Shown in pieces: positions 22,262 to 46,175 of a stretch of DNA of 64,000 bases. Each line of letters begins with the position of its first letter. Within the stretch, counting starts at the first letter, position 1. Origin of the DNA: Campylobacterales bacterium (GTDB taxonomy: Bacteria > Campylobacterota > Campylobacteria > Campylobacterales > Sulfurimonadaceae); the NCBI GenBank assembly GCA_016938735.1, contig JAFGUB010000014.1, positions 1-64,000 on the forward strand. Direction: 5' to 3'. The translations under genes and the position numbers were made by a program. The notes under the pieces are model-generated. The model searched no databases. It had not been told where the DNA came from and saw nothing but the letters and a program-made list of their open reading frames with translations.

Positions 22262-22828
22262 ATGAAGTCGTGGGAGAAGGAGCACTTTTTGTTCGCGATT
22301 GTGGTGCTGATCGCAGTATTGCTGGCGGCCAAAACGGTCCATTTTGGAGGAAGCGGCGCGATTAATGTGAGCATTATGCCGCAGCAAGGGGGGATAGCGA
22401 CGCTTGATACCCCCAAAAACCACACCGAAACCAAAACGCTTCGGGTGCCGACGATCGATTTTGCCAATAAAAGCGTGCTGGAGCATCCGGACGTGGGGGT
22501 GCTGGGCTTTAGCAGCAACTTTTTCATGGAGCTACGCACCCGAATGCAGGTACGCCAAGATGGCCAATACACTTTTTATGTGGCATCGGACGACGGTTTT
22601 AGGCTGCACATCGATGATCGGGTGATCTGCGAACATCTGGGGGATCGACCATTTGCCACCTCGACTTGCACCGCCGCGCTTCAAAACGGGGCACACACGC
22701 TGCGCGTAGAGTATTTTCAAGGCGGCGGCCCGCTGGGGCTTAAGGCGCTCTACAAACACGAAGGGCAGGCATCGGCGCTGCTGATCGGCAAAAACAGCGA
22801 CGCAGCCTACTTTGAGGAGATTCAATGA
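22262..22828 (+). CDS. membrane-anchored PA14-domain protein
   Basis: 188 residues. One N-terminal TM (about 8-24), then a PA14-type beta-sandwich: YTFYVASDDGFRLHIDD is the typical core, and GAHTLRVEYFQGGGPLGLKA the typical final strand. PA14 domains bind glycans or act as adaptor domains; this one should face the periplasm. Overlaps the GT39-like gene by 4 nt, so a partner role in substrate recognition by that transferase is likely. Confidence 0.85.
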   Translation: MKSWEKEHFLFAIVVLIAVLLAAKTVHFGGSGAINVSIMPQQGGIATLDTPKNHTETKTLRVPTIDFANKSVLEHPDVGVLGFSSNFFMELRTRMQVRQDGQYTFYVASDDGFRLHIDDRVICEHLGDRPFATSTCTAALQNGAHTLRVEYFQGGGPLGLKALYKHEGQASALLIGKNSDAAYFEEIQ

Positions 22829-24285: not shown

Positions 24286-24659
24286 TGTCTCAGGTGCGGG
24301 GTTTTTTGCTGCTGGGGGCGCTGACGACGCTGATCGACTATGCGCTCTATGCCCTGCTGATCCTTTGGGACGTCGATTACGTCGCGGCGGTGGTGCTGGG
24401 CTATAGCGCAGGGCTGTGGGCCAACTACGCGCTGGGTCGGCGCTACGTTTTTCGCGCGGGCAGCAAGCTTGAGAGCAGCCGCAAGGAGTTTGTCGCGGTG
24501 GCGGTGATTGCGGTGGGGGGAGTTTTGATCAATATCTTGGCGGTTAAACTGCTGAGCCATGATCTCTTCACATTTGATCCGCTCTTTTCTCGTATTATAG
24601 GGATCGGCGCCGGTTTTGTATGGAATTATGGGATGAGAAAACGGTATGTCTATCATTAA
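24285..24659 (+). CDS. GtrA-family membrane protein
   Basis: 124 residues with four TM segments and the GtrA pattern (RGFLLLGALTTLIDYALYALL, then GYSAGLWANYALGRRYVF). GtrA proteins help flip or place polyprenyl-linked sugars. The start is the ATG at 24285 in a TGATG overlap. Together with the GtrB-like GT2 at 26490 and the two GT39 enzymes it forms a polyprenyl-sugar pathway. Confidence 0.9.
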   Translation: MSQVRGFLLLGALTTLIDYALYALLILWDVDYVAAVVLGYSAGLWANYALGRRYVFRAGSKLESSRKEFVAVAVIAVGGVLINILAVKLLSHDLFTFDPLFSRIIGIGAGFVWNYGMRKRYVYH

Positions 24660-26493: not shown

Positions 26494-27422
26494 ATCTTTT
26501 TTTCGATAATAAAGCGTGGGCGCTCTTTGCTCTCCATGTAGATTTTGCCGATGTATTCACCCACAATGCCCAGTGCAAAGACCTGAATCCCCCCGATAAA
26601 GTAGATCGGCAGCACCGTCGATGCCCAACCCGGCACCGCTTCGTCGCTAAAGAGTTTGACCCCAAGCACCCATGCGCTCATCAGTAAAGTGGCGATAAAG
26701 ATCAGAAAACCGGTGGCGGTAATGAAGCGCAGCGGCATGATCGAAAAGGAGGTAATACCGTCCCATGCGAAGCTGAGCATCTTTTTGAGTGGATATTTGG
26801 ATTCACCCGCAAAGCGTTCGGCGCGGTCGTAATAGAGCTGCGTACTTTTAAAGCCCAAAAGCGGCACCATGGCGCGTAAAAAGAGGTTGACCTCTTTGAA
26901 GCGGCGCAGCTCTTCAAGCGCGCGGCGGCTGAGCAGCCGGTAGTCGGCGTGGTTGTAAACGATATCGACCCCCATAAGGCGCATCAATTTGTAAAATCCT
27001 TCGGCGGTTGCGCGCTTGAACGGAGTGTCTACCGTGCGCTCTTTACGGACGCCGTAGACCACATCAAAACCCTTATGATACTGCTCCACCATCTGCTCGA
27101 TGATGGTGATATCGTCTTGCAGATCGGCGTCGATGCTAATGAGCGCGTCGCCCTCTACCGTGAGCAATCCCGCCAAAAGTGCGTTTTGATGGCCTCGGTT
27201 GCGCGAAAGTTTGAGTCCGCTTACATGTAAGGATTCAAGACAGAGCTGCTCGATGAGCGACCATGTAGTGTCTTTGCTGCCGTCATCGACAAAGCAGATG
27301 CGGCTTTGTGCGTCGATGATACCTCGTTCGATCAGGCGATCCAAGAGCGCAAGCAATCTGGCGGCGGTTTCGCTTAGCACCTCTTCTTCGTTGTAGCAGG
27401 GGACGACGATGCCAAGTCTCAT
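26490..27422 (-). CDS. GtrB/ArnC-like polyprenyl-phosphate glycosyltransferase (GT2)
   Basis: 310 residues. Cytoplasmic GT2 domain with VVPCYNEEEVL, FVDDGSKD, the DADLQDD metal site and GHQNALLAG, then two C-terminal TM segments. Makes polyprenyl-phosphate sugars used by GT39 enzymes such as those encoded opposite. It lies 1 nt after gspF on the same strand, so it may be read with the minus-strand T2SS genes. Confidence 0.92.
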   Translation of the reverse strand: MRLGIVVPCYNEEEVLSETAARLLALLDRLIERGIIDAQSRICFVDDGSKDTTWSLIEQLCLESLHVSGLKLSRNRGHQNALLAGLLTVEGDALISIDADLQDDITIIEQMVEQYHKGFDVVYGVRKERTVDTPFKRATAEGFYKLMRLMGVDIVYNHADYRLLSRRALEELRRFKEVNLFLRAMVPLLGFKSTQLYYDRAERFAGESKYPLKKMLSFAWDGITSFSIMPLRFITATGFLIFIATLLMSAWVLGVKLFSDEAVPGWASTVLPIYFIGGIQVFALGIVGEYIGKIYMESKERPRFIIEKKI

Positions 27423-27423
27423 G

Positions 27424-28644
27424 TCAAGCTCCGATGTTCATAGAAAAGATGGGCAGCAGCATCGCCGCAACGATAAAGCCGATAATGCCGCCCACAAAGA
27501 GCATGAGCGCAGGTTCAAGCAGGGAGAGAAAGAGCGCAATCTTGTCCTTGTTCTCTTCAAAGTAGAGCTCAGAGAGGTTTTGCAAGATGGAAGAGACTTC
27601 ACTCGTCTCTTCGCCCAGCGCAATGGCTTGAACAAAAGAAGAATCGATTTTGTAGCCGCCGGTGCGTAGCAGGGCGTTGGAGAACTTACTCCCCTCAACG
27701 ACCCGCACTGCCGCGTCGGTGAACTTTTTGCGGATGACGCTGTTTTTGACGATATTGGCGGCCAGATTGGCGGTCTGCACAAAGGGGATACCCGAGCGGA
27801 TCAGCACTGACGAGATGTACGAAAAGCGCCCCAGCTCCGAGCTTTGGATAATGGGGCCGAAAAAAGGGAGCTTCAGCATCATCAGATCGACGGCGTATTT
27901 AAAGGGGGCGCTCAGTTTCATCATCAGCGAAAAACCGACGATCAGCGCCACAAGTAAAATGGCCACGATATGCCACTGATGGGTGAAAAAATCCCCCAAA
28001 GCGATGACGAATTTGGTAATGTCGGGCAGCTCCTGGCCCAGCTGCTCGAATATGCCGGTGATCTTGGGCACCACAAAGGTGATCATAAAGGCCACCATAA
28101 AGAGCGAGACCACGATGATAAATGAGGGGTAGGCGAAGGCGTTTTGGATCTGTTTGTTGACGCGCGTCTGCTCCTTGAGAAAGACCGAGAGTTCCAGCAG
28201 CACCTCTTGCAAAATCCCGCTGTTTTCGCTCACCTTGATCGACTGCTTGTAAAAATCGGGCAGGGTGATGATGGATTGGGCATCGAGGGCCTGATAGAAG
28301 CTTTTACCCTCATCAAGCAGGGTGATGAGCGTGGCGATAAAGCTGGCGAGGGTTTTGTTGGCGGCGTACTGATTTTGGGCAAGGCGTAGCGCGTTGACGA
28401 TGGAGATCCCCGCTTTGAGATAGATGGAGAGGTCACGGCTGAGTGTGGCAAGCGCGGCGCTGGAGATGCTTTTGCGACGCTTGAAGCTGATACCTCCAAA
28501 GAGCGGTGCACTCTCTTCGCTGATGGAGGTATAGAAGATCTGCTTGGCGCGCAAGCGGCGCTTGGCATCTTCAAGATCGGCGGCTTCAATCAGCCCTTTG
28601 GTTTTGGAGCCGTCATTTAAAAGCCCTTTGTACTTAAATACCAT
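27424..28644 (-). CDS. gspF: type II secretion inner-membrane platform protein GspF
   Basis: 406 residues. Duplicated GspF domain with three main TM segments (about 165-190, 215-240, 375-400) and the N-terminal extension MVFKYKGLLNDGSKTKG typical of GspF. Anchors the assembly ATPase GspE. Last T2SS gene of the minus-strand arm (after the H-like and G pseudopilins). Confidence 0.93.
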   Translation of the reverse strand: MVFKYKGLLNDGSKTKGLIEAADLEDAKRRLRAKQIFYTSISEESAPLFGGISFKRRKSISSAALATLSRDLSIYLKAGISIVNALRLAQNQYAANKTLASFIATLITLLDEGKSFYQALDAQSIITLPDFYKQSIKVSENSGILQEVLLELSVFLKEQTRVNKQIQNAFAYPSFIIVVSLFMVAFMITFVVPKITGIFEQLGQELPDITKFVIALGDFFTHQWHIVAILLVALIVGFSLMMKLSAPFKYAVDLMMLKLPFFGPIIQSSELGRFSYISSVLIRSGIPFVQTANLAANIVKNSVIRKKFTDAAVRVVEGSKFSNALLRTGGYKIDSSFVQAIALGEETSEVSSILQNLSELYFEENKDKIALFLSLLEPALMLFVGGIIGFIVAAMLLPIFSMNIGA

Positions 28645-32571: not shown

Positions 32572-33098
32572 AAAAAGTCAAAATATTGCTGCTTTACAGC
32601 GCCATTTTACTGGCACTTATCATCTTTTTTCTGCCCAAAACGCAGCTCTATTATCAGGCCGAAGCACTGTTGGCGGAGTATAAGGTCTTTATCTCACAAG
32701 AGCGTGTGATCGACAATGGCTTGACGCTCGGCTTGCAAGAGGGGACGATCTACTACGACGATATGGCTATTGCCGCGTTCGAGGCGATCCGGTTGCGTCC
32801 GTGGGTGTTTTACAACTCCCTCGTTTTAGAGCCTACGGAGCTTTCGGCTGAAATGGAGCAGTTTGTGCCGCGCAGCATTGATTGGCTCAAGATCACTTAC
32901 GCTGTGTATGATCCTTTACATGTAACCATAGAGGGCAGCGGAGCGTTTGGATCGGTAGAGGGATCGGTAGCCTTGTTTGACCGCAATATCTCGCTGACGC
33001 TAACGCCATCTGAAGCCCTGCTGGGCAAGAAACCGTTTTGGCTAGGCAAGCTCAAAAAAGATTCTGAGGGGGGGTATCGCTATGAAACAACTTATTAA
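32568..33098 (+). CDS. GspN-like T2SS protein
   Basis: 176 residues. N-terminal TM (about 6-22), then a beta-rich periplasmic domain (ITYAVYDPLHVTIEGSGAFGSVEGSVAL) like the repeated strands of GspN. Start GTG at 32568 in a GTGA overlap with gspM. GspN is an accessory T2SS protein found in only some systems. Contains a palindrome copy read as PLHVT. Confidence 0.65.
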   Translation: MKKVKILLLYSAILLALIIFFLPKTQLYYQAEALLAEYKVFISQERVIDNGLTLGLQEGTIYYDDMAIAAFEAIRLRPWVFYNSLVLEPTELSAEMEQFVPRSIDWLKITYAVYDPLHVTIEGSGAFGSVEGSVALFDRNISLTLTPSEALLGKKPFWLGKLKKDSEGGYRYETTY

Positions 33099-33876
33099 TC
33101 CCTCGCTCATTCGTCGTCTGATCTTTATTGGATGGATGGCGTTTGTTGTCAAAGCGGCGATGCTCACTTTGCTCTTTTTCTTGCCAAAGCAGGGGCTGGA
33201 GCGTTTACATGTAGCCGAGAATTCGCTCTATGGCTCCTACAAGCCTGCCTCCGCATTTGGATTGCAGGGTAAAAAAGCGGAAGCCCCCAAAGAGGCGCCG
33301 GTCTATCGGCTTGATAGCCTGACTCTTCAGGGGCTTTATGACGATCCACACAATCCCTTTATCGCGGTAGCCGAAGGTGCGACTGTGACGATGATCGGTC
33401 GGGGTGAGGTGTTCAAGGGGTATAAACTCATCGAAGTGCGTTCTGACCGCGCCGTTTTTGAAAAGGATGGCAAGCGCTATGAGCTGACGTTCAAAGAGAG
33501 TGGCATCAAAACCGACACCATGATTAGCGCCGCCGAACCTGAGGTGATCCAAGATGACTCCGCCGTTTTTGTCAAGCGCAACGAGATCGCCCACTACGCG
33601 AAAAACTTTGAAGATATCTGGAAAAACATCAAGATTCAAGAGCTGATCAAGGATAAAAAGCTTGAGGGTTTTGAGGTGACGTGGGTCAAAAAGGAGTCGG
33701 TGTTTGCGAAACTGGGACTGCGCGAAAAAGATATCATCGTCGCAGTGAACGGCCAGCGGCTCAAATCAATATCACAGGTATTTAAAATCTACAACAATAT
33801 GGACAAGCTTGACAGCCTCAAGCTGACGATCATGCGAGACAACCAAGAGAAGGAACTGGAATATGAAATTTTTTAA
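33082..33876 (+). CDS. gspC: T2SS protein GspC with PDZ domain
   Basis: 264 residues. TM at about 12-36, an HR domain (LDSLTLQGLYDDPHNPFIAVAEG), and a C-terminal PDZ domain (GFEVTWVKKESVFAKLGLREKDIIVAVNGQRL). GspC connects the inner-membrane platform to the secretin and may help pick substrates. Overlaps neighbours on both sides (17 and 14 nt). Confidence 0.9.
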   Translation: MKQLINPSLIRRLIFIGWMAFVVKAAMLTLLFFLPKQGLERLHVAENSLYGSYKPASAFGLQGKKAEAPKEAPVYRLDSLTLQGLYDDPHNPFIAVAEGATVTMIGRGEVFKGYKLIEVRSDRAVFEKDGKRYELTFKESGIKTDTMISAAEPEVIQDDSAVFVKRNEIAHYAKNFEDIWKNIKIQELIKDKKLEGFEVTWVKKESVFAKLGLREKDIIVAVNGQRLKSISQVFKIYNNMDKLDSLKLTIMRDNQEKELEYEIF

Positions 33877-35770
33877 TGCGGCGTTTTTGGCGGCGGCACT
33901 TCTTGTAAGCGGCGTATATGCTACGGCGGACGAACCCAAACCGACCCAGCGCGAACGGGTCAATCTGAAGCTCGACAATATCAAAATCGAGGATTTCATC
34001 GCGATGGTCGGCAAAGTAGTCAATAAAAACATACTGCTCTCCCAGCCGATTCCAGGCACCGTCAACTTTATCTCAACCTCTCCCATTTACAAAGACGAGC
34101 TGATGAACATCCTGATTGCCGTACTGGAGAAAAAGGGCTTCACGCTGGTGCAAAGCGGCAGCTTCTATACCGTAGAGCGCTCCAATACGGCGGTTAAGAG
34201 TAATCTACCTATAGGCACCAAAGAGAAGAGCCTGATGAAGACGGAGTTTATTCAGGTGACCAGCGAAAACGTGGATATTCTCGCGGCCAAAGTGCGCCAG
34301 TTTCTCTCCGAAGGGGGGAAACTGCTCACCATGAAAGAGACCAACACGATGATCGTGAGCGACTATCCCGCCAATATTGCCATCATCCAGAAAGTGACCG
34401 ATAAGATCGAAGCACAATATGCCGAGAATGCACAGGTCGATTTCGTTACCCTCAAAAACGCCAAAGCGAGCCGCATTCAGCCCCAACTGCTCAAAATCGC
34501 ACAGACTCTTATCAACCAGAAAGTCGAGAGCAACAAGGTCGATATCATCGCCGATGATGCCAGCAATGCGATTATCGTGCTTGCCTCCAGAGAGAATATC
34601 GAAATGCTCAAACCCATTGTGGATCGGCTCGATGCCAAAGATGACTCAAGTGACCAGCGCCTGACGATTCTGCCGCTGGAGAACTCCGAAGCCAAAAACG
34701 TTGTTGCCAGCTTGCAAACTATTCTGGATAAAAAGAAATACGTCAACGAAGCCAGCAAGCCGACTGTGAGCGTCTATGAGGAGCTCAACGCACTCGTGAT
34801 CTCCGCCACCGAAACCGATATCGAAGATATCAAAAAGATGGTCGAGGTGCTCGACATCGAAAAGCCGCAGGTCTTCGTGCGTGCGCGCATCATCGAGATC
34901 AGCAAATCCAAAGGGGATCAGATCGGCGCGCGTTACGGGCTGGCCGGCGGAGCGCTCACCAGCTCGGGACTGCTCAGCTTTGCCGCCAATCTGGGCGGCT
35001 CGTCCGTAGTGCTGCCCCAGGGGCTCAACCTCGACACCAGCGCCAAGTTTAGCGAAGGGATCGTCTTTGGGGCAACTATCGACTTTTTGGCGGGCAACGG
35101 TGCGGCGCATTCGCTCTCCGAGCCCACCTTGCTCTGCGTGAACAATCAAGAATCGACCATCTATGTGGGACAGACCCAGTCGATCGTTACCTCGACGGTG
35201 CAGGGCAATCAGAGTACCGATCTGGCGCGCAACACCGTCTCGCGCGAAGATATCGGTTTGACGCTCAAGATCAAACCGCGTCTCTCCTCCGGTGATAAGG
35301 TGACTTTGGTGGCCAACGCCAAGCTCGAAGACGTCATCCCCGGCTCTACGCCCGGCTATGTCAACACCTCCAAACGTGAAGTGACCACCACGGCCATCGT
35401 ACAAGACGGTGAAAGCGTCATTATCGGCGGACTGCTTAGCGATAAAGAGCGTGACAGCAATACGGGGATCCCTCTGCTTAAAGACATTCCGGTCTTAGGT
35501 GCGCTCTTTGGCTATACCGACACGTCTAAAGAGGAGATCAATCTGGTGATTATTCTCACCCCTTACATCGTGCGCAACAATGAGGATCTGCCCCGCGTGC
35601 GCAAGCTGATGCAGCAGCTTGACGAGATCCAAAACGAATACGAGAAGCTGCTGGGGAGAAAACTCGATGAACGCCTGCAGGAGATCCAAAAAGAGGAGGG
35701 TGCACAGGCACCCGATGCCAAATCTTCCGCGCCAAGCGCTATGGAGATGATCTCTCCTTCAGGAGTGTAG
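33863..35770 (+). CDS. gspD: T2SS outer-membrane secretin GspD
   Basis: 635 residues. Sec signal (about 1-22), N0 to N3 periplasmic domains, and a C-terminal secretin domain with VSREDIGLTLKIKPRLS and VQDGESVIIGGLLSDKE followed by GIPLLKDIPVLGALFG. Ends in a Glu-rich, Ser/Ala tail (about 595-635). Forms the outer-membrane channel for folded exoproteins. gspE begins at the next base. Confidence 0.96.
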   Translation: MKFFNAAFLAAALLVSGVYATADEPKPTQRERVNLKLDNIKIEDFIAMVGKVVNKNILLSQPIPGTVNFISTSPIYKDELMNILIAVLEKKGFTLVQSGSFYTVERSNTAVKSNLPIGTKEKSLMKTEFIQVTSENVDILAAKVRQFLSEGGKLLTMKETNTMIVSDYPANIAIIQKVTDKIEAQYAENAQVDFVTLKNAKASRIQPQLLKIAQTLINQKVESNKVDIIADDASNAIIVLASRENIEMLKPIVDRLDAKDDSSDQRLTILPLENSEAKNVVASLQTILDKKKYVNEASKPTVSVYEELNALVISATETDIEDIKKMVEVLDIEKPQVFVRARIIEISKSKGDQIGARYGLAGGALTSSGLLSFAANLGGSSVVLPQGLNLDTSAKFSEGIVFGATIDFLAGNGAAHSLSEPTLLCVNNQESTIYVGQTQSIVTSTVQGNQSTDLARNTVSREDIGLTLKIKPRLSSGDKVTLVANAKLEDVIPGSTPGYVNTSKREVTTTAIVQDGESVIIGGLLSDKERDSNTGIPLLKDIPVLGALFGYTDTSKEEINLVIILTPYIVRNNEDLPRVRKLMQQLDEIQNEYEKLLGRKLDERLQEIQKEEGAQAPDAKSSAPSAMEMISPSGV

Positions 35771-37285
35771 ATGGTTCATCTTCCGCGTATCGAAAACATC
35801 GATCTTCATCCCCAGCAGATTGAAGGCATCGATACCAATCTCGCCGTCAAAAACTATATGCTTTTGACCGAACTGCACGGCGAGCCCCACGTCATTATCT
35901 CAGAGCGTCACCTCTCCAGCGCACTTGACTTTCTCGCCAAGCAAGAACTCACCCTGCCGATAGCCATGGCGGATGAAGACAGTTTTGATCGGCTCTATAA
36001 CAAATTCTTGGAGCTGCGCACGGATGCGGAGCTGGGCTCGCTCGAGCAGGGCGAAGAGGAGATCGAGACAGATGATATCTCGCTCTCGGAGTTTTTGCGC
36101 AACAGCTCCGATTTGCTCACCAGCGAAGAGTCGGCGCCCGTTATCAAGTTTGTCAATGCCCTCTTTTATCAGGCGCTCAAAAGACGCGCTTCGGATATTC
36201 ACATTGAGGTACATGAGAAACGTAGTGAAGTTCGTTTTCGTATTGACGGTGCGCTGATCAAAAACGCCGACATCGACAACCGCATCGCCACACTTATCAT
36301 CAGCCGTATCAAAGTCATCTCCAGCCTTGATATCTCCGAAAAGCGGATTCCTCAAGACGGTCGCACGCAGGTGAAGATCGCCGGAAAAAACATCGACGTG
36401 CGGGTTTCGGTGCTACCGACCTACTACGGGGAACGGGTCGTTATGCGGATGCTGATGCAATCCGAAGACATTCCGCACATGGTCGATCTGGGGTTTGAGC
36501 CCAAGCTGGTGCGCCAGCTTGATGAGCTGCTCAAGCACTCACACGGAATTATTCTCGTTACCGGCCCCACGGGAAGCGGTAAGTCCACTACTTTGCACGC
36601 CTTTTTACAAGAGGTGGCCAAGCCCGACATCAACGTCATTACCATCGAAGACCCGGTCGAGTACAAAGCGGACAACATCAACCAGATCCAAACCAACGCC
36701 AAAGCGGGGCTTACCTTCGCTTCGGGGCTCCGCTCGATCCTGCGCCAAGACCCCGACGTGGTAATGATCGGTGAGATCCGCGATACCGAAACGGCGCAGA
36801 TCGCCATCCAGGCGGCACTGACGGGGCATCTGGTCTTCTCAACCCTGCATACCAACAACGCTACGGCCGCCATCACGCGTTTGATCGATATGGGGATTGA
36901 GCAGTTTCTGATCGGTTCATCGCTTTTGGGGGTATTGGCGCAGCGACTGGTGCGAAAGCTTTGCGTGCATTGCAAAGAGGAGGATTTCTTGGCCGAAGAG
37001 TTCGCCAAAGAGTTCGATCTACCCGAAAACGCCAAAATCTACAAATCAAACGGCTGCTCCAAATGTAACTACACGGGTTACAACGGTCGCCGCGCCATCG
37101 GCGAGTTTTTTGTGCTTGATGACAACTTCCGTAGTATGCTCAAAGAGCGCATGAGTGACCATGTGATCCGCAATCAAGCCATCGCGCAGGGGATGGAAAC
37201 ACTCTCCGATCAGCTTAAAATTCTTTTGCTTGACGGCACCACCTCCATGCACGAGATCATCCGTGTGGGTGTCAAAGATACCTGA
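35771..37285 (+). CDS. gspE: T2SS assembly ATPase GspE
   Basis: 504 residues. Walker A GPTGSGKSTT at about 265-274, Asp box ITIEDPVEY, Walker B MIGEIRD, and a four-Cys zinc site (CVHC...CSKC) near 400-430. Powers pseudopilus assembly at the inner membrane. The N-terminal domain is short. Stop overlaps the gspI start (TGATG). Confidence 0.96.
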   Translation: MVHLPRIENIDLHPQQIEGIDTNLAVKNYMLLTELHGEPHVIISERHLSSALDFLAKQELTLPIAMADEDSFDRLYNKFLELRTDAELGSLEQGEEEIETDDISLSEFLRNSSDLLTSEESAPVIKFVNALFYQALKRRASDIHIEVHEKRSEVRFRIDGALIKNADIDNRIATLIISRIKVISSLDISEKRIPQDGRTQVKIAGKNIDVRVSVLPTYYGERVVMRMLMQSEDIPHMVDLGFEPKLVRQLDELLKHSHGIILVTGPTGSGKSTTLHAFLQEVAKPDINVITIEDPVEYKADNINQIQTNAKAGLTFASGLRSILRQDPDVVMIGEIRDTETAQIAIQAALTGHLVFSTLHTNNATAAITRLIDMGIEQFLIGSSLLGVLAQRLVRKLCVHCKEEDFLAEEFAKEFDLPENAKIYKSNGCSKCNYTGYNGRRAIGEFFVLDDNFRSMLKERMSDHVIRNQAIAQGMETLSDQLKILLLDGTTSMHEIIRVGVKDT

Positions 37286-37752
37286 TGCGTAGCGCCTTTA
37301 CCGTCGTAGAGGTGGTGATTGCCGCCGTGATCGCCACCATCGCAGGCGTCGGGCTACTGCAGATGAATGCCAACTACGCTTTTTTGTTTGCGCGGATGGA
37401 GCAAAAATCGATCAGCAGCGAGGTGCTCTCATTGGTGGGTTTTCACGCTGATAAGAAGTATCATAAAACGACCAAAACGCTTGAGGATCTGCTAGACCGC
37501 ACCTACGACATCCAAAACGACGATCTGCGAAAATGGCTCGGTGAGACGAAGCTTGACTACACCGAGCATCTGATTGAGACGATTACGTTGGGCGAAGAAG
37601 AGTTAGGCGGCGACTTTGGCAACTATGAGATGGAAGATGCAAGCGAAACCTCTGCTCTTGCCCCGGTGATCCAATTTGAGCTGCTGGAGATCCACGTCGA
37701 AGGCGAAACCATCCGCGGCAGCGTCTTACATGTAAGGCCGGTGACGCTGTGA
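37285..37752 (+). CDS. gspI: GspI-like minor pseudopilin
   Basis: 155 residues. MRSA leader then FTVVEVVIAAVIATIAGVGLL with Glu at +5 and Ala at -1. Forms the pseudopilus tip with J and K. Overlaps gspE by 1 nt and gspJ by 4 nt. Carries a palindrome copy near its end, read as SVLHVRPV. Confidence 0.82.
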   Translation: MRSAFTVVEVVIAAVIATIAGVGLLQMNANYAFLFARMEQKSISSEVLSLVGFHADKKYHKTTKTLEDLLDRTYDIQNDDLRKWLGETKLDYTEHLIETITLGEEELGGDFGNYEMEDASETSALAPVIQFELLEIHVEGETIRGSVLHVRPVTL

Positions 37753-38309
37753 GAAGAGCCTTTACCATCATGGAGCTGCTGGTTTCAAGCGTGCTTATCG
37801 TGATGATTACCCTATTTTTGTACAACGCCATCGCGTCGATGACCCTCTCTAACCGCACCCTTGCCAAACACGACGACGCGGAGCACAACCGCAGCAAAAT
37901 ATTCGATCTTTTGTACCGCGATCTGCAAGAGTCCTTACATGTAAAGGTCGAACCGACCGAAGATAAACACTTCGCGATTGTCAAACTGCAGACGCGCAAT
38001 TCGCTGCACGAGATTGCCATGCCGTACGTCGTATATTTGATCCATACCCAAAACAACGCACTCACCCGCTTGGAAGCGGCCAAAGAGATCGTTTTACCCA
38101 TCTCTTATGAAGATCGGTTCAGCGTGCATGCCGATAGACTTCTAGAGGGTGTGAGTGATTTTAACCTCTACACCGCGACGCAAGAGCAGAACATCACGGC
38201 AGAATCAAATACGACCGCTGATGCGAATTTATCTATAACAAATAGTGTATTGCTCTTTTTGAAGGTAAAAAACTGGTCATCACCGATGCTCTTCGAGCTC
38301 GCCCTTTAG
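37749..38309 (+). CDS. gspJ: GspJ-like minor pseudopilin, GTG start
   Basis: 186 residues. Leader (V/M)RRA then FTIMELLVSSVLIVMITLFLYN, again Ala at -1 and Glu at +5. Start GTG overlapping the gspI stop (GTGA). Last gene of the plus T2SS arm; codon and base use shift to AT-richer DNA right after it. Position and size support J. Confidence 0.82.
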   Translation: MRRAFTIMELLVSSVLIVMITLFLYNAIASMTLSNRTLAKHDDAEHNRSKIFDLLYRDLQESLHVKVEPTEDKHFAIVKLQTRNSLHEIAMPYVVYLIHTQNNALTRLEAAKEIVLPISYEDRFSVHADRLLEGVSDFNLYTATQEQNITAESNTTADANLSITNSVLLFLKVKNWSSPMLFELAL

Positions 38310-38391: not shown

Positions 38392-39582
38392 ATGGCAAAC
38401 AAACAGATTCTGAGTGTTGTCGCTGCAACAGTACTGGCAGCGTCATTTACTCTAACAGGATGTGGTAGTAGTTCAAGCAAGAGTTCGAGTTCAAGCTCTA
38501 CTTCAAGCTCTACTTCAAGCTCTACTTCAAGCTCTACTTCAAGCTCTACTTCAAGCTCTGAAAGCAGCAGTTCTTCAAGCGTTGTTCCTTCAACGATCGT
38601 TCGCGTTTCAGATGCATATGTTGTCAATGCTACGGTAATGGCAGGCGCTAAAGAGTTCCCAATCTATGTAGGCGCGGGACAGTATGAAATCGCTGAAGAT
38701 GCGGTTGTCGGTGACCTGATGGCTACTGGCGGTGTAAACGATGCTAATGCTAACGATAGTGCCGATAACGGTGAATCAATGGCACCGACGCTGAAAGCTC
38801 CTTCAGGTTATGCCAATATCAACCCATTCACGACCATGATGGTTGATAACAACAAGACAGCAGAAGAGCTCGCAGCACTTTATCCATTCTCGGCCGCAGT
38901 AGCTGCTAATTTTGACTTTGACGTTGTAGCTGCCGGTTTGAGTAATCTTGACGTGGCAAAAGAAGCTGCTATTGCTGCTTTGACGATTTCAGGCGAACAA
39001 AACGGTATGCCTGCGGCAAGCAGCTCAAGCAGCGTATGTTCCAATGGCGGGGAAGTGCTTCCTGGAGGAGGAAATACATGTGAAACTCCTGCAAGTAGCT
39101 CATCCTCAAGCAGCGTAGTTAGCAGTACAGGCGGTATTTTGCCTTCTGCAAATGCACTCAGAGGAATCTTGCCGGATGAAGGCAATACTGGAGATACCGT
39201 AACCCCATCTTCATCATCTGTTGCCTCTTCTAGCAGTACAGGAATTTTGCCTGATCAAGGTCAGGGTGCTTCATCTAGCAGCTCATCTACATCTAACGTG
39301 GTAAGTGATGCGATTGCAGCAATCAATGCGTGTAGCGACGTTGCATGTGTGGCAGCTAAGTTCGAAGAAACATTGGCTCTGGTCAATGGTACATACACTG
39401 CACCGGTTGCTTCAAGCAGCGAGGAAGCTTCATCTTCTGTATCCTCTGAGCCAACACAAGCAGAAATTTGTGTAGCCAATGGCGGTACATGGATTGCTGA
39501 AGTCAATTCATGCTCCATGCCGGTCACCAGCAGCTCCTCTTCTGTAACCAGCAGCGGCGGCGGCGTGCTTCCAGGCGCTTAA
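38392..39582 (+). CDS. Ser-rich lipoprotein A, putative T2SS-linked surface protein
   Basis: 396 residues. Lipobox LTGC near residue 20, then a Ser/Thr tract (about 24-60) coded by a 12-bp tandem repeat. The next domain (about 65-205) contains RVSDAYVVNATVMAG, an EF-hand-like acidic loop (DANANDSADNGE) and PFTTMMV. A Ser-rich, Gly-Ile-Leu-Pro stretch and a C-terminal motif C-x3-GGTW-x6-C (ICVANGGTWIAEVNSC) follow. Paralogue of the lipoprotein at 40906. RBS AAGGA before ATG 38392. Directly follows gspJ; exported to the surface by T2SS is inference. Confidence 0.85.
   Translation: MANKQILSVVAATVLAASFTLTGCGSSSSKSSSSSSTSSSTSSSTSSSTSSSTSSSESSSSSSVVPSTIVRVSDAYVVNATVMAGAKEFPIYVGAGQYEIAEDAVVGDLMATGGVNDANANDSADNGESMAPTLKAPSGYANINPFTTMMVDNNKTAEELAALYPFSAAVAANFDFDVVAAGLSNLDVAKEAAIAALTISGEQNGMPAASSSSSVCSNGGEVLPGGGNTCETPASSSSSSSVVSSTGGILPSANALRGILPDEGNTGDTVTPSSSSVASSSSTGILPDQGQGASSSSSSTSNVVSDAIAAINACSDVACVAAKFEETLALVNGTYTAPVASSSEEASSSVSSEPTQAEICVANGGTWIAEVNSCSMPVTSSSSSVTSSGGGVLPGA
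38491..38559 (+). repeat. 12-bp in-frame tandem repeat (5.75 copies)
   Basis: Five perfect copies of TCAAGCTCTACT and a nine-base partial copy encode Ser-Ser-Ser-Thr units in the linker of lipoprotein A. The unit is a multiple of three, so copy-number changes would alter linker length without a frameshift. Confidence 0.95.
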
Positions 39583-39613: not shown

Positions 39614-39653
39614 GTTTCTTCCTTCTGCAAACAAATCTTTCAAAGTGATTTTT

Positions 39654-40406
39654 ATGAAAACTATTACCCTTCTTTTATTGTTTTTACCCTCTCTTTTTGC
39701 TGTAGAGATTACCATTAAACCAAGCAGCACGTATACCGCGAATCAGCAGGAAGTCGGTTTGCTCCAAAGCATGTTTATGAAACAACGAATCCAAATTGAT
39801 GCGGATGATGCATTGGATCTGATCCAACAAAACCGCTTTCTCTCTGACCATTACCTGGCAACCAACAAAATACCTGAAGAGGTGATGTTAAATCTTAGAC
39901 TTGAGTTTGAAAAGCATCTTGCATCAGAAGTTGTAAGAGAGATGGAAGCCAAAATTACTATTGATGATGAAGTTACCAAATCTTATTACGTTGCCAACAA
40001 TGAAGAGTTCAAGAAACCAAAATCGATTAAACTGAGTATTTTCAGATTTGAAACCTTTAATGAAGCATTAGCGTTTTATACACAGTTCGTCGATTTGAAT
40101 GCCGAAGTTGATTCATTTGCCAAAGAGCACAATATCTCTTCTAGTACAGAAGCAATAGAGATCAATAAGCTGAACAAACTTTTTCAGGAGATGATTGCAC
40201 AATCCAAAACAAATCCTCCTTTCCTTCTGCCACCTCAATTTTTTTACAAACATTACAGTGTTCTTTATGTTAGATCGGTATCAGAACAGGGTGTTTATGA
40301 ATATGAAGATGTGAAGGATAAGATAGAGAAAATCATTCATGAGCAGGCGCTTGATCGCATGAAAAAAGAGTTGCTTAAGCCATATAGACAAAAAGAAGAG
40401 AGCTAA
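39654..40406 (+). CDS. SurA/parvulin-like periplasmic chaperone
   Basis: 250 residues. Signal peptide MKTITLLLLFLPSLFA. The middle (ITIDDEVTKSYYVANNEEFKKPKSIKLSIFRF) has the form of the segment that leads into a PpiC-type parvulin domain, and helices before it resemble a SurA N-domain; the parvulin part itself is degenerate, so isomerase activity is doubtful. Flanked by the two Ser-rich lipoprotein genes, it may chaperone them. Ends 2 nt before the next gene. Confidence 0.72.
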   Translation: MKTITLLLLFLPSLFAVEITIKPSSTYTANQQEVGLLQSMFMKQRIQIDADDALDLIQQNRFLSDHYLATNKIPEEVMLNLRLEFEKHLASEVVREMEAKITIDDEVTKSYYVANNEEFKKPKSIKLSIFRFETFNEALAFYTQFVDLNAEVDSFAKEHNISSSTEAIEINKLNKLFQEMIAQSKTNPPFLLPPQFFYKHYSVLYVRSVSEQGVYEYEDVKDKIEKIIHEQALDRMKKELLKPYRQKEES

Positions 40407-40408
40407 TT

Positions 40409-40840
40409 ATGATGGCGCGTAAATTAGCTCTTTTATTTCTACTAATCACATTTAGTGGATGCGAGCCTAAGTACCAATTCGCGTCTTTAGATGAGAATTT
40501 GAGCTTGAAAAACTCGGCAGAGCGATCACTGAGTAAAAGACACTTGGCATATTGGGAGCTCATGTCACAAAAAAAGTTTACCGATACGTACGATTTTGAA
40601 TTGCCTTATCAACGATACATTTATGGCGAAGAGTGGTATCAAACATTTTTTGAAGGGAACAACAAAGAATACAAAGTCATTTTAAGAGAGATTGAATGGC
40701 TTGATGAGCAGAGCGTCATCGCGCATACGGAGTATAAAAGAGAGAAAAATCGCCATATCTTTAAAGATAAATGGTTTTATGTCAATGGCAAGTGGTATCA
40801 TATGTTCCCAACTTCTAAGCTTCCGAAAGCGGAAGAGTGA
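40409..40840 (+). CDS. small lipoprotein of unknown function
   Basis: 143 residues. Lipobox FSGC near residue 18. The mature part is rich in aromatic and charged residues (YQRYIYGEEWYQTFFEG, WFYVNGKWYHMF) and resembles an NTF2-like small alpha+beta domain, though I cannot confirm this. It starts 2 nt after the SurA-like gene, so the pair is co-translated. Confidence 0.78.
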   Translation: MMARKLALLFLLITFSGCEPKYQFASLDENLSLKNSAERSLSKRHLAYWELMSQKKFTDTYDFELPYQRYIYGEEWYQTFFEGNNKEYKVILREIEWLDEQSVIAHTEYKREKNRHIFKDKWFYVNGKWYHMFPTSKLPKAEE

Positions 40841-40905: not shown

Positions 40906-42222
40906 ATGAATAGTTACAGCAAGTGGATAGGCGTTATTTCAATTTCTGCGGCGACCTTTTTGCTCGCATCGTGCGGTGGGGGTGGAGGAAGCTCAAGTAG
41001 TTCTGAAGTATCTTCATCTTCAGAAATTTCGAGCAGCAGTAGTGAAAGTAGCCAGATAAGCAGCTTCGCTTCTACTTTGGTGCGTGTCTGCGATGCTTAT
41101 GTCGTCAATGCTGATGTCAGGGCTGGAACAAATCAATTCAATCTTGAGCATGAGGCAGGGCTGTATGAGATCAACCAGCCAAACATGGGTAATTTGGCAT
41201 TGGTTTCTGAAGGAGGAGTTAATGATTTAAATGGCGATGGAGAACCTTCTATTGGCGAACCGAATGCACCGGATATGAAAGCACCTGCTGGATATGCGCA
41301 TATTTCGCCATTTACGACAATGTTGGTCAATGGAGTTGATATCGCGGCGCAAGCTGATTATCAGGCGGTAGCACAGTTTGCCCCACTCTATGATTTTGAT
41401 CCTGTCGCGGCAGGAGCAGAGTTCGCCAATGGTATTGCGCAGGCAACCGCGATAGCCGCACTGAGACTTTCAGCCGGCGGTGATGGTTCGATGGAACTAC
41501 AGAGTTCTTCATCCTATGGTGATGACTCGCTTCCCGGTGCTGGCGGATCGGTGGCATCAAGCTCTTCCATTGTGGTTCAAAGTAGTTCCAGTAGCGTTTC
41601 TGGCGTCACCTCTGCTCCAAGCGGTGGTGTGTTGCCGCAAGCGATTGGATATAGAGGTATTCTACCGGGTAATGAAAGCAGTACCGGCACGTCTTCATCA
41701 CTAAGATCGAGCTCCAGTTCAATCGTTTCTTCGGTATCCAGCGCTAGCAGTTCATCTGTTCTCAGCAGTGTGGCTTCTTCGAGCAGTTCAGTTTCCTCCA
41801 CCCTTAATATGCTTCAGCAGGCAATTGACGCCATAAAAAATGCAAAGAATCTTGAAGAGCTCAATCTACTTCTCAAAACCTATATGGCCTATTATAATGG
41901 TAGCTATGCAAACTCCAGCGCCAGTAGCTCTCTCGTGATGAGCTCAAGCAGCCAATCAAGTGCAATCGGTACCTCAGATGACTGTTTGCCTGGTTATGAT
42001 TGCGCCAGTAGCTCAAGCAGTCTTGTTTCATCGATTTCAAGCAGTAGCGCTCAAAGCAGCACTCTTGCAGCGAGTTCTTCATCCGTAAACAGCGCGCAGC
42101 AGGTATGTATCGCTGCAGGCGGCACATGGATCCCAGAAGTCAATGGCTGTTCTATGCCGGCTACCAGTAGCTCATCCTCTTCAAAACCCTCTACTGGCGG
42201 GGGCACGGTGCTGCCACAGTAA
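40906..42222 (+). CDS. Ser-rich lipoprotein B, paralogue of lipoprotein A
   Basis: 438 residues. Lipobox LLASC then GGGGGSSSSS. The domain at about 50-190 aligns with lipoprotein A by eye (RVCDAYVVNADVRAG, GGVNDLNGDGEPSIGE, KAPAGYAHISPFTTMLV); its loop DLNGDGEPSIGE fits an EF-hand-like Ca site better than A does. Long Ser/Ala/Val tracts and IGYRGILPG link to a C-terminal CIAAGGTWIPEVNGC motif and GGGTVLP end. RBS AAAGGA. Probably surface-exposed. Confidence 0.85.
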   Translation: MNSYSKWIGVISISAATFLLASCGGGGGSSSSSEVSSSSEISSSSSESSQISSFASTLVRVCDAYVVNADVRAGTNQFNLEHEAGLYEINQPNMGNLALVSEGGVNDLNGDGEPSIGEPNAPDMKAPAGYAHISPFTTMLVNGVDIAAQADYQAVAQFAPLYDFDPVAAGAEFANGIAQATAIAALRLSAGGDGSMELQSSSSYGDDSLPGAGGSVASSSSIVVQSSSSSVSGVTSAPSGGVLPQAIGYRGILPGNESSTGTSSSLRSSSSSIVSSVSSASSSSVLSSVASSSSSVSSTLNMLQQAIDAIKNAKNLEELNLLLKTYMAYYNGSYANSSASSSLVMSSSSQSSAIGTSDDCLPGYDCASSSSSLVSSISSSSAQSSTLAASSSSVNSAQQVCIAAGGTWIPEVNGCSMPATSSSSSSKPSTGGGTVLPQ

Positions 42223-42391: not shown

Positions 42392-43738
42392 ATGAGCTTT
42401 AAAAAAGCGATCGTATCTAGCGTAGCAGCAGCTGCTCTTGCAACTTCAGCTTTTGCAGGTACTGGTGCAATCCAAGTTGCTGCGGACAAAACAGGTGACT
42501 ACCTTCTTTTCCCAGCATATTATGCTAACTCTGCCGGCTGGAAAACAGATCTTCGTGTTGTCAACACAAACACAACTGCTTCAGTAGTTGCAAAAGTGGT
42601 TATCCGTGACGCTCGCCAGTCTGAGGAAAAAGTGGACTTCGTGATCTATTTGACACCAGGTGACGTATGGTCAGGTCTGATCTATGAATCTGCCGGCACG
42701 ATTCACGTCTCTTCAAGCGACGATTCACTCGTTATCGGTGGTGTACCTGCGAACGAGTCTCCTGTAGATCTCGTGTTCCCAGCTGCATCTAATGGCCAAG
42801 TAATTACTTCTGGTTACGTCGAAGTATTTGGTCTTGTACAAACTGATGATGCTTCTGTAGCTTATACTAAAAAAGACGGTACTTCAGGTACTGAAGACCT
42901 TGGCGACGCTCCAGTTGATAAACGTGCGCTTTATCAGTGGTTTACAACTTCGTTGTATGACTCTTCAGTTGCTGTAACTGAGAAAAGAGAAGTGAGCAAT
43001 AACGATCTTACTGGTCAAGCTGTAGTCTATGCAGACAACACCAGCGGGCAACTTGCAATGACTACTCCTGCTACTGCTATGGAAGGTTTGATGGGTACAG
43101 CTTATCCTAACAATGCTGCTTACATTGCTGCAAACATTATTGGTAAAGACACACTTCTTTCTAACCATGTTATCGCCCTTGCTAGTCAAACAAAATATGC
43201 TGGCGGCAAATGTGATCTGGTCGACGAATACGAATCAGCTATTGCTAAATACGCATCATACGTAGTTCATTACGGTGATACAACTGTTGACGAAAGTGCG
43301 CTTCTTGCCCTTTTCCCAACTAAAAAATACCGCTTGCAAGAGCCAGATGTTGCATGTACTATCGGTGAAATCTTCGAAGCTAAAACGGTAGCAGAATATG
43401 CATGGGCACAAAGTAGTGACTTTATGGTTACTTACGGCCAAACTCCACGTGACATGATGGAAAATACTCCAAGCACACCACCTCCAGGCGAGGTATCTGG
43501 TGGCGATGAAACTACTATCGATCCAGATCAGTGTGACCGCGAGCTTTGCCAAATCACTGTTGTCAACAGTGTTGGTGCAGAAGGTTATGTCACTTACGTA
43601 TTCACCGGCGAAGCTGAAAACAACAGCACTGTTGTTTCACCAATGCCTTATGAAACTCGTGTTATGACTGCTAAAAATGTTGGTGGCGCTAACGTTACTA
43701 ACATGATCAGCCCTGCATTCGTCGGCGGACAGTACTAA
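42392..43738 (+). CDS. abundant exported beta-rich protein, likely surface protein
   Basis: 448 residues. Sec signal (about 1-22, ALATSAFA). The first domain has DYLLFPAYYANSAGWKTDLRVVNTN and YLTPGDVWSG, a pattern I associate with exported proteins of deltaproteobacteria and Campylobacterota without known function. Four cysteines: two mid-protein (GKCDL, DVACT) and a CDRELC pair near the end. A second beta-domain ends VGGQY. Strong promoter, AAGGAG site and codon use (many GCT, GGT, ACT) point to high expression. Candidate T2SS cargo or cell-surface layer part; not proven. Confidence 0.82.
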   Translation: MSFKKAIVSSVAAAALATSAFAGTGAIQVAADKTGDYLLFPAYYANSAGWKTDLRVVNTNTTASVVAKVVIRDARQSEEKVDFVIYLTPGDVWSGLIYESAGTIHVSSSDDSLVIGGVPANESPVDLVFPAASNGQVITSGYVEVFGLVQTDDASVAYTKKDGTSGTEDLGDAPVDKRALYQWFTTSLYDSSVAVTEKREVSNNDLTGQAVVYADNTSGQLAMTTPATAMEGLMGTAYPNNAAYIAANIIGKDTLLSNHVIALASQTKYAGGKCDLVDEYESAIAKYASYVVHYGDTTVDESALLALFPTKKYRLQEPDVACTIGEIFEAKTVAEYAWAQSSDFMVTYGQTPRDMMENTPSTPPPGEVSGGDETTIDPDQCDRELCQITVVNSVGAEGYVTYVFTGEAENNSTVVSPMPYETRVMTAKNVGGANVTNMISPAFVGGQY

Positions 43739-43895: not shown

Positions 43896-46175
43896 ATGAA
43901 AAAATTAGCTCTTATATTCGCTTTATTGAGCGGATTGTTGCATGCAAGTTTCTATTCTGTTCATCAAGCACCACAAAGCAATGGGGTCCAAGGTGCCGTT
44001 AATCAATTCAACAGCATCGTACAATCTGGTTCATATGGATACTTCACGCACGCTTTTACACTTGATAAGTTTCAGTCAAGCAATGAATATGGATTGTGTG
44101 ATCAAAATGGTTATGAAGAGGTAAAGCTGTATGTTCCCGGTGGTGCGACAAGCGTCAAAATTCTTTTTTCAACAGAACGTAATACTAACTTTAAGATTTA
44201 TTCAAAGTTTGAGCCATCATCAGGTTTTAATACGACTCAAACAACACTTTTTGATAATGTGAATTATCAGCAACCAGCTTCTTATCACTTTATTGCAAAT
44301 AATGCCGGACTGCTCTTATTCCCAGAAACTACATTAAATCGTTTAGTAGGTACAACAGGTGGATGGCTCTACCTAATGGTGATTAATGATACACCTGTAC
44401 GGCCTAGTTCATATATTAACAACAAAGCAATGACGCTAAATATGTCTTATACATTGTTTATCAATAATCATACTAATTATAAAACATGGCTAAATCGTAC
44501 CTATATTCAGTCTAATGGTGACCCAGTAGAGAGTGCTGCGAATTTGTATGTTACATCAAATAGTTGTAGTAGCGGTCCTCGTACATCGACATATGCACTC
44601 AGCACAAGTGGAACATTGTACGACGGTTCAGGATCATACGAACCGGAACCTGAATTAACACCGCAAGAGCAGTGCGAGCAGCAGGGAAAATATTGGATTG
44701 CTTCTAGCAGTACATGTACGACTCAAGAGGTGTACAACTGTATCGTAACTCAAGCAGGCACGTGGAATACAGGAGAAAATCGGTGTGTGACTCCGGCTGA
44801 AGTTGCATGTAATAATGTAAGTACGACTAAATGGTATGTGGCAGGGTCTGAATGTCTGGATAAAACCAAGACGGTCAATGGCCAATTGATGGATGGTTAT
44901 TGGAATATTTCAGAGTTCCGAGCAAACAGCGAAGGGTGGAGTACACAGCTGAGTGTTAGAAATTTGAATACTAATGCGTCAAGTGTTAATACAACAGCTG
45001 TGAAAGTATTGAATATGCAACAATCAGTACAAAGTTTGTTACGAACCAATGCCGTTGCTGGTACACAAACATGGCAAACCAAGCTTTATGAATCTGGCGG
45101 AAAAGTCTACTTTGAAACCATAGGAGATAGTGCCAATCGCAGTGAACTTAATCCCAAAATCAACGTAGGTTCGATCAAAGTAGAATCGTCGCCCGTCGAT
45201 CGCTTAAGTGAGTTGCAAGTTACTGCCGACATTACCTACACTGCACCTAGCTCGAGCTCAAGCTCTAGCCAAAGCAAATCCATCGAACAGATCGAATGTG
45301 AAAATGGTGGCAATGTATGGAGTGCGGAGATTAACCAATGTATGTATACGACGACTTCTTCAAGATCAAGCAGCAGCTATTCAAGTGTGGCGCAAAACGA
45401 TACACAGTTGAGAGCCGAGTGTGAAAGCTTAGGTAATTACTATACATGGAACACAGCGCTACGTCTTTGTATGTATTCACCACCTGCAGTTTCCAGCTCA
45501 TCAAGATCCAGCTCCTCTAGCTCATCCTCGACTTCTGTCTCTAGTGCCGAGCAAGAGTGTCTCAATCGAGGTGAGGGCTATTTGTGGAATAATGAGCTAC
45601 GTTTGTGTCTGCAGGTTGCACAATCTTCATCGAGTGTGAGTTCTACTATAAGTGATGCACAAGTGAGATCTGTGGTTGTTCCAGCCGTTGCTGCGAAAAC
45701 CTACGATATTGCTGGATATTTTATTCACTTCGGTTCAGGATCATACGATTGGGCTTACGTAACTACATCAGGTGGCATCATTGCAAAGTTAACCGGTATT
45801 GATCAAAATGGCTTCTTGACTTGGGAAAAACTAAAATACGGTGATGTTAACCTATTGAGCGGGGCTGAATTTAATGCAAATTTCACGCAAGTCACATTTG
45901 GAGAGCTGCTGAGTGTTCCCGGCACGGATTCATCTACAGCGCAAAAGCTCGCCGCAAAAACGTTTGAAATTACCGGTGTTTTTGTTCACTATGACAGTGG
46001 TGCCTACGACTGGATCTATACATCACTATCTGGTTCAGTCTCTGCTAAGTTGACTGGCTTGGATGAAGCTACAGGTTACTTAACATGGGTATGGCTTGAA
46101 GGTAACGGCATTGATGCTTTTAGCTCGATAGAGCTTCTTCCTGGCAACACTATTCACTTTGGAACAGCCAAGTAA
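43896..46175 (+). CDS. large modular secreted protein with Cys-pair and Ser-linker modules
   Basis: 759 residues. Signal peptide MKKLALIFALLSGLLHA. An N-terminal beta-domain (about 20-250), then six Cys-pair modules of the form C-x(n)-W-x(n)-C near residues 259, 280, 304, 466, 507 and 553. A beta-domain at about 325-440 (NISEFRANSEGWSTQLSVRNLNTN) resembles the protein at 42392. Ser linkers separate later modules, and a duplicated C-terminal domain of about 70 residues (AKTYDIAGYFIHF and AKTFEITGVFVHY) ends it. RBS AAAGG sets the start at 43896. Looks like an adhesin or surface-binding protein; cargo of the T2SS is inferred. Confidence 0.8.
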   Translation: MKKLALIFALLSGLLHASFYSVHQAPQSNGVQGAVNQFNSIVQSGSYGYFTHAFTLDKFQSSNEYGLCDQNGYEEVKLYVPGGATSVKILFSTERNTNFKIYSKFEPSSGFNTTQTTLFDNVNYQQPASYHFIANNAGLLLFPETTLNRLVGTTGGWLYLMVINDTPVRPSSYINNKAMTLNMSYTLFINNHTNYKTWLNRTYIQSNGDPVESAANLYVTSNSCSSGPRTSTYALSTSGTLYDGSGSYEPEPELTPQEQCEQQGKYWIASSSTCTTQEVYNCIVTQAGTWNTGENRCVTPAEVACNNVSTTKWYVAGSECLDKTKTVNGQLMDGYWNISEFRANSEGWSTQLSVRNLNTNASSVNTTAVKVLNMQQSVQSLLRTNAVAGTQTWQTKLYESGGKVYFETIGDSANRSELNPKINVGSIKVESSPVDRLSELQVTADITYTAPSSSSSSSQSKSIEQIECENGGNVWSAEINQCMYTTTSSRSSSSYSSVAQNDTQLRAECESLGNYYTWNTALRLCMYSPPAVSSSSRSSSSSSSSTSVSSAEQECLNRGEGYLWNNELRLCLQVAQSSSSVSSTISDAQVRSVVVPAVAAKTYDIAGYFIHFGSGSYDWAYVTTSGGIIAKLTGIDQNGFLTWEKLKYGDVNLLSGAEFNANFTQVTFGELLSVPGTDSSTAQKLAAKTFEITGVFVHYDSGAYDWIYTSLSGSVSAKLTGLDEATGYLTWVWLEGNGIDAFSSIELLPGNTIHFGTAK

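Follow-up and report, generated by a model that had tools for sequence, protein, structure and literature searches.

Repeated two-cysteine tryptophan modules in three exported proteins of a type II secretion cassette from a Campylobacterales bacterium

Why does a short pattern of two cysteines and one tryptophan recur six times in one large exported protein and once in each of two lipoproteins, and what could it do there? The question is raised by a 64,000-nucleotide stretch of a Campylobacterales genome (contig JAFGUB010000014.1, positions 1 to 64,000; referred to here as the window), from a bacterium whose relatives include deep-sea vent species. In an earlier note on this DNA the pattern was said to look like a small disulfide knob, used as a binding or sorting module.

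Eight C-W modules were located in the window: six in the open reading frame at 43896-46175, one in lipoprotein A (39469-39513) and one in lipoprotein B (42106-42150), so that the number and placement first reported were confirmed. Counted from the ATG start of the large protein, the six modules begin at residues 260, 282, 305, 468, 509 and 555, each one or two residues away from the positions proposed before (259, 280, 304, 466, 507 and 553). All six are read on the forward strand: module 1 (44673..44717; CEQQGKYWIASSSTC), module 2 (44739..44786; CIVTQAGTWNTGENRC), module 3 (44808..44855; CNNVSTTKWYVAGSEC), module 4 (45297..45341; CENGGNVWSAEINQC), module 5 (45420..45470; CESLGNYYTWNTALRLC) and module 6 (45558..45608; CLNRGEGYLWNNELRLC). 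The pattern common to all eight modules is C-x(6-8)-W-x6-C. The narrower form C-x(2-4)-G-x-W-x(6)-C fitted the modules of lipoproteins A and B and had to be given up for the other six (2/8 fit): a glycine occurs at +4 after the first Cys in 6/8 modules, at +6 in module 2, and is missing from module 3. The modules of A and B, reported as C-terminal, lie near the C-terminus and are followed by a Ser/Gly tail. Ser tracts, which had been described as adjoining the modules, flank those of A and B and modules 4-6, but not modules 1-3 (flank Ser 0.04-0.10).

When the large protein was shuffled 20,000 times, the mean was 0.014 modules and the maximum three, versus six observed; no shuffle reached six (0/20,000), and chance was rejected as the source on that ground. 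A single module was reached in 18/20,000 shuffles of lipoprotein A and in 34/20,000 of lipoprotein B. The C-W modules of the three window proteins are real and non-random. Each carries two Cys, and the six modules account for 12 of the large protein's 14 Cys; together with export, this makes disulfides likely. A module profile was run against the organism's own genome (2.85 Mb, 62 contigs, E up to 10), and its eight matches were these eight modules, although the power of the profile is limited: a clear module of genome G480 scored only E 0.013 and went unreported at E up to 0.01. All matches fell in the three module proteins, whose genes all adjoin T2SS genes, and no cytoplasmic protein in the whole genome was matched, both in keeping with the earlier note.

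The large protein (759 aa; 43896..46175, forward strand; signal peptide assigned by eye) consists, in order, of the signal peptide, an N-terminal domain (43896..44624, also present in relatives), modules 1-3, a domain resembling protein S (44898..45200; 27% identity to S, E 2e-8 in a single comparison), Ser tracts with modules 4-6, and two tandem C-terminal YDW repeats (45687..46163; GYFxHYGxGxYDWxY...KLxGxDxxGxLxW). Its AlphaFold2 model was poor (mean pLDDT 36.5, too poor for a fold search); modules 5 and 6 were drawn in it, at low pLDDT, as a helix followed by a hairpin. YDW repeats were found in 7/397 genomes of the phylum, one of the seven weakly. They are often tandem and occur in many exported proteins: subtilase, CAP and, by eye, beta-propeller-like proteins. 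Genome G053 (contigs C1 and C2) held at least 15 YDW matches, with 15/44 candidates scored. A YDW repeat was also seen on another contig of the source genome (C9, 198396-198827).

The genes of the module proteins share their neighbourhood (22262-46175 in the window) with genes for T2SS components, a foldase, protein S and a PMT-type O-mannosyltransferase. Lipoprotein A (38392..39582, 23% Ser) and lipoprotein B (40906..42222, 26% Ser) are encoded on the forward strand, carry a lipobox recognised by eye and are paralogues (44% over 206 residues). Between them, on the same strand, lie a PpiC-like foldase (39633..40406; Rotamase_2 E 0.0016, below the curated cut-off, with a plasmid homologue annotated as peptidylprolyl isomerase) and a small conserved lipoprotein-like cassette protein (40409..40840). 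Protein S (42392..43738, forward) stands just before the large protein and has no C-W module. Its N-terminal part was modelled as a beta-sandwich and matched TM1070 of Thermotoga (PDB 1nc7) with Z 9.3 over 110 residues at 2.6 A; the Foldseek E was 3e-3, with no match at 0.001, the mean pLDDT of the whole S model was 51.8, and such a fold shows no function by itself. The secretion genes recognised by Pfam were GspD secretin (33863..35770, forward), GspE ATPase (35771..37285, forward), GspF (27424..28644, reverse) and a PDZ protein, GspC-like (33082..33876, forward); two pseudopilin-like genes (37285..38309, forward) have N_methyl matches below the curated cut-off and homologues on the plasmid. 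Gsp letters other than D, E and F are provisional assignments from gene position. The PMT-type protein O-mannosyltransferase (22825..24285, forward; PF02366 E 7e-27, PF16192 E 6.5e-18) is preceded by a PA14-domain protein (22262..22828, forward; Pfam) and followed by a GtrA/DPMS transmembrane protein (24282..24659, forward; Pfam). A family 2 glycosyltransferase (26490..27422, reverse; Pfam) is a candidate polyprenyl-phosphate mannose synthase, its substrate being presumed. A PglB-type STT3 oligosaccharyltransferase (60400-61566, reverse) lies in the same window, so that genes for both N- and O-glycosylation occur near the cassette. The three module-carrying proteins belong to one conserved T2SS/foldase/S/PMT cassette.

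A known domain was considered as the identity of the module and found little support in the databases searched. With 12 and with 21 modules, no Pfam family was matched at E 10, carbohydrate-binding families included, and NCBIfam gave no match to the module. The matches elsewhere were weak for a motif of about 20 residues, which is hard to detect: four PHROGs were matched by one member each (best E 0.049), and with E up to 10 allowed the PDB gave two and four sequences (0.24 and 0.042 at best). The best PDB match was to a phage baseplate protein over 13-14 residues, followed by weaker tetranectin and chiasm-protein rows. Whole window proteins gave sub-threshold family matches only, and one PDB match at E 0.37. 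In viral contigs, a DNA pattern for C-x3-GGTW-x6-C was found in at least 120 stretches, and in 27 of the 121 matches listed no open frame was longer than that of the module, where equal frames would give about 20. Among the 103 that remained without duplicates, D, E or Q preceded the first Cys in 13/23 stretches with that frame versus 14/80 (p 0.0004), and D or N followed the Trp in 10/23 versus 20/80 (p 0.07, not clearly enriched); judging from these residues, some of the viral motifs are probably real and most of the matches probably chance. A 22-residue consensus gave no match against plasmids and eight partial records at E 9 against phages. A CEANGGYW motif was also seen in a protein of loci L033 and L036 (genome G154), the end of which resembles a filamentous-phage coat protein by eye.

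The Ser-rich part of these proteins, here called the stalk, is what varies among relatives. Sixteen hand-chosen proteins were compared (L019, L060 and L292, with modules or module parts, were left out), and 10 of the 16 held 23 C-W modules. The flanks (25 residues each side) contained at least 24% Ser for 19/23 modules, a figure uncontrolled for the Ser-richness of the proteins themselves; the modules outside Ser tracts were modules 1-3 of the window and that of L123. The same four residues, C, G, W and C, are found in modules of related proteins from other genomes. C-W modules occur in 5/11 large-protein relatives (those of the window, G027 and L123, and two of G053) and are missing from 6/11 (G168, G531, L131, G005 and both of plasmid pNitYY0826), and copy number ranges from 0 to 6. 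The W-to-C spacing, six in the window, ranges over relatives from 4 (G053, G446, G480, pNitYY0826) to 9 (G027), with 6 in L123. Other contents are found in the stalk: CPSGYSYDPDLGYC and similar loops in the G168 and L123 large proteins and in one from pNitYY0826, longer two-Cys loops in G531 and the other pNitYY0826 protein, MopE repeats in G005 (E 8.9e-44), and Ser alone in L131; Trp is missing from many of the alternative loops. Since the stalk of one relative or another holds C-W, CBM14-like or other two-Cys loops, MopE or only Ser, the knobs look exchangeable. In G053, four knob-plus-linker units of 168 bp are identical in DNA, which suggests that stalk length changes by whole units; a fifth shares 89/168 bases over the stretch compared, with the module itself identical. 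Ser tracts, C-W modules and YDW repeats are combined in CAP-domain proteins of G446 and G480 and, by eye, of L292.

The CBM_14 (peritrophin-A, PF01607) domain has six conserved Cys in three disulfides. The stalk loops of some relatives match its profile over positions 24-49 and share an aromatic-x6-Cys with the eight window modules. The Pfam cut-off (22.1 bits) was passed by L123 and one pNitYY0826 large protein (23.8 and 25.4 bits), each score being the sum of two copies that cover only positions 24-49 of 53; G168 (16.6 bits) and G480 (15.1 bits) stayed below. Unlike CBM_14, these loops amount to half a domain, the modules have two Cys each, and the C-W modules do not match the profile; those of other genomes are mostly W-x4-C or W-x9-C, in contrast to the aromatic-x6-Cys of the CBM14-like loops. 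Cu-binding_MopE (PF11617), which fills the stalk of the G005 relative, is another sequence family and was not found in the window protein.

The reading that we put forward, with the chances of its being right or wrong about equal, is that the knobs are exchangeable beads on the Ser-rich, probably O-mannosylated stalks of the cassette proteins, where they would stiffen and protect the stalk and make weak multivalent contacts. Each module would be a disulfide-closed helix-hairpin knob of about 20-25 residues. The small disulfide knob of the earlier note fits what the sequences offer (two Cys per module, exported proteins, repeats) and the low-confidence helix and hairpin of modules 5 and 6. The knobs would be strung as beads along the stalks of putative surface lipoproteins and of a multidomain protein presumably exported by this T2SS, and would stiffen the stalk and shield it. 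An exposed Trp, repeated in several copies, could provide weak multivalent contact with a glycan or another surface, in the manner of small carbohydrate-binding modules attached by Ser linkers. Binding is a plausible role: some stalk loops resemble chitin-binding loops, which speaks for a binding job, although a half-domain match is not membership. Against the proposal stand the position of the C-W modules outside carbohydrate-binding families and that of modules 1-3 and L123 outside Ser tracts. The poor model of the large protein, the lack of Trp in many alternative loops, the variable W-to-C spacing and the loose link between stalk type and glycosylation genes described below also count against it.

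Comparable arrangements exist elsewhere. In the T2SS-bearing marine degraders Saccharophagus and Teredinibacter, polyserine linkers join small modules of secreted proteins, enzymes to carbohydrate-binding domains. The module proteins resemble such T2SS-associated Ser-linker proteins in that their genes stand beside T2SS genes (GspD, GspE and GspF by Pfam) and in that, relatives included, Ser surrounds most modules, modules 1-3 and L123 excepted. They differ in that the linkers of the marine degraders join enzymes, whereas no carbohydrate enzyme was recognised by Pfam in the module-bearing proteins scanned, and in their module, which is only about 20 residues long and has a single Cys pair. Both 'polyserine linker' and 'type II secretion' are terms used in the Saccharophagus and Teredinibacter genome papers (PMC2386152, PMC2699552). 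In Caldicellulosiruptor bescii, a GT39 (PMT) gene is reported to lie near celA, and its deletion to have removed glycosylation of secreted multidomain enzymes (PMC6151902). A PMT-family gene near genes of secreted multidomain proteins is common to both, but C. bescii is a thermophile that degrades cellulose, its linkers are mainly Thr/Pro and its carbohydrate-binding modules are known ones, and for the window proteins the glycosylation is presumed.

A purely structural spacer, in which protease-resistant beads set the length and stiffness of the stalk and bind nothing, is the strongest competitor, and we consider it possible but rather unlikely. It would explain why relatives swap the knobs for different two-Cys loops, for MopE repeats or for Ser alone, and why in G053 knob and linker have been copied as one unit, identical in DNA. 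It is harder to reconcile with the CBM14-like loops in the stalk of some relatives and with an alignment of 12 modules from three genomes (window module 3, without G, omitted), in which C, W and C were invariant and G nearly so.

Metal or sulfur chemistry, with Cys pairs that bind metal or react with vent sulfur, is very improbable: the stalk of one relative (G005) does hold MopE-type putative metal-binding repeats, but the C-W modules have no further metal ligand in common and their spacing suits a disulfide. Export or sorting by the T2SS, the second role suggested in the earlier note, is very improbable. The T2SS adjoins the genes of all three module proteins; however, the module is missing from protein S and from the subtilases with the same C-terminal YDW repeats, its copy number is variable, and its absence from 6/11 large-protein relatives led us to reject sorting as the main reading. 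Different two-Cys units in the same place also point to a shared job, that of a rigid closed bead, and argue against a specific address. If cargo is marked by any domain, the YDW tandem, which may serve in cargo recognition or anchoring, is a better candidate than the modules. A chance or low-complexity artefact, which Ser-rich, repetitive proteins might favour, is negligibly probable in view of the shuffles and of the same C, G, W and C in related proteins elsewhere.

The beads-on-stalks reading concerns proteins whose cassette is also found on plasmids. A tblastn search with protein S retrieved three plasmid records, all from Nitratiruptor (YY08-26, YY08-13, YY09-18). Relatives of the cassette make up most of pNitYY0826_PLS (35.3 kb) and pNitYY0918_PLS (24.5 kb), the latter assigned from annotation and gene order; the secretion proteins of pNitYY0826_PLS were 28-75% identical to those of the window in computed protein matches. 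Both plasmids are annotated with secretion genes, a foldase, an S8 protease, an O-glycosylation-type glycosyltransferase (PMT), GtrA and a family 2 glycosyltransferase; on both the cassette adjoins replication genes, and S and the large protein are annotated as 'hypothetical'. The idea that every Nitratiruptor plasmid carries the cassette was rejected, as the plasmid of YY08-10 is annotated with other genes and has no counterpart. The isolates have one plasmid of 24-35 kb each (PMC9723563), and the main text of that strain paper contains no word starting with 'secretion'. T2SS-annotated genes induced by sulfur or metals are reported for Sulfurovum and Nitratiruptor (PMC10045233, PMC10092412); these genes are not equated here with those of the cassette. 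In the open-licence PMC articles searched, the literature on type II secretion in the phylum was sparse, and neither a T2SS-PMT cassette nor the C-W module was found.

Across the phylum, protein S was detected in 9/397 genomes (E up to 1e-4), and wherever S and a large-protein relative were seen at one locus, S lay upstream. Within the stretches fetched, S was followed by the large protein in the source genome (G000), G053 (two copies), G168 and G005, and stood alone in G040, G432 and G444. A large-protein relative also follows S at loci L123, L125 (G027), L126 (G531), L127, L128 and L131; the L131 protein may be of a different family in its N-terminal part. Contig 2 of G168 carries S, the large protein and PMT; in G058, S accompanies a lipoprotein, a foldase and a small protein, and in G249, GspE- and GspF-like genes. 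Loci L127 and L128 are labelled Saprospiraceae, a likely misbinning as they resemble Nitratiruptor cassettes (up to 65% identity). Locus L130, labelled Persephonella, holds S and a protein like that of L131 by eye, and is a relative of the Nitratiruptor cassette. With a limit of E 0.05 the module profile reached 12/397 genomes, in most cases weakly; within the family to which G053 belongs it reached 4/22 genomes with a limit of E 0.01.

Ser tracts of the stalk are probably O-mannosylated. A PMT orthologue occurs in 5/14 genomes examined (G000, G001, G053, G168, G568), and Ser tracts are present in cassette proteins of all of these except G001, which is known from its PMT contig only. The PMT orthologue was not found in G027, G531 and G566, fragmented drafts in which the cassette contigs end early. 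A strict coupling of Ser tracts to PMT is not supported: both Ser tracts and C-W modules occur in G446 and G480, where this PMT is missing and weaker PF02366 proteins are present. In G005 and G567, which also lack it, no Ser run of lipoprotein A exceeds 5, and the protein instead carries 14 and 11 D/E-x-N-x-S/T sequons versus shuffle means of 0.8 and 0.6, an excess that is inflated because one duplicated unit counts many times. The swap was seen in lipoprotein A and not in the large protein of G005, which has 0 sequons. STT3 was present in 11/12 genomes examined, with or without Ser stalks (it was not found in G566), and is not discriminating because it is found whatever the stalk. Sequon-repeat lipoprotein A genes were located at L124 (4236-5390) and L129 (7513-8553), in genomes without the PMT orthologue.

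The module alone is a modest find, a compact repeat absent from Pfam and NCBIfam at the thresholds used; the surrounding cassette is of more interest. We propose tentatively, rating it slightly less likely to be right than wrong, that this is a partly plasmid-borne glyco-secretion cassette in which a T2SS with its own PMT builds modular surface stalks of Ser tracts and two-Cys knobs, and in which lineages have swapped the way the anchored lipoprotein is glycosylated, by PMT on its Ser tracts in some and at PglB-type sequons in others. If this is true, a T2SS that shares small plasmids of vent bacteria with its own mannosylating enzyme and with stalk-like substrates would form a self-contained kit for surface display, and the change from Ser tract to N-glycosylation sequon in lipoprotein A would offer a comparative test of the purpose of the stalk sugar.
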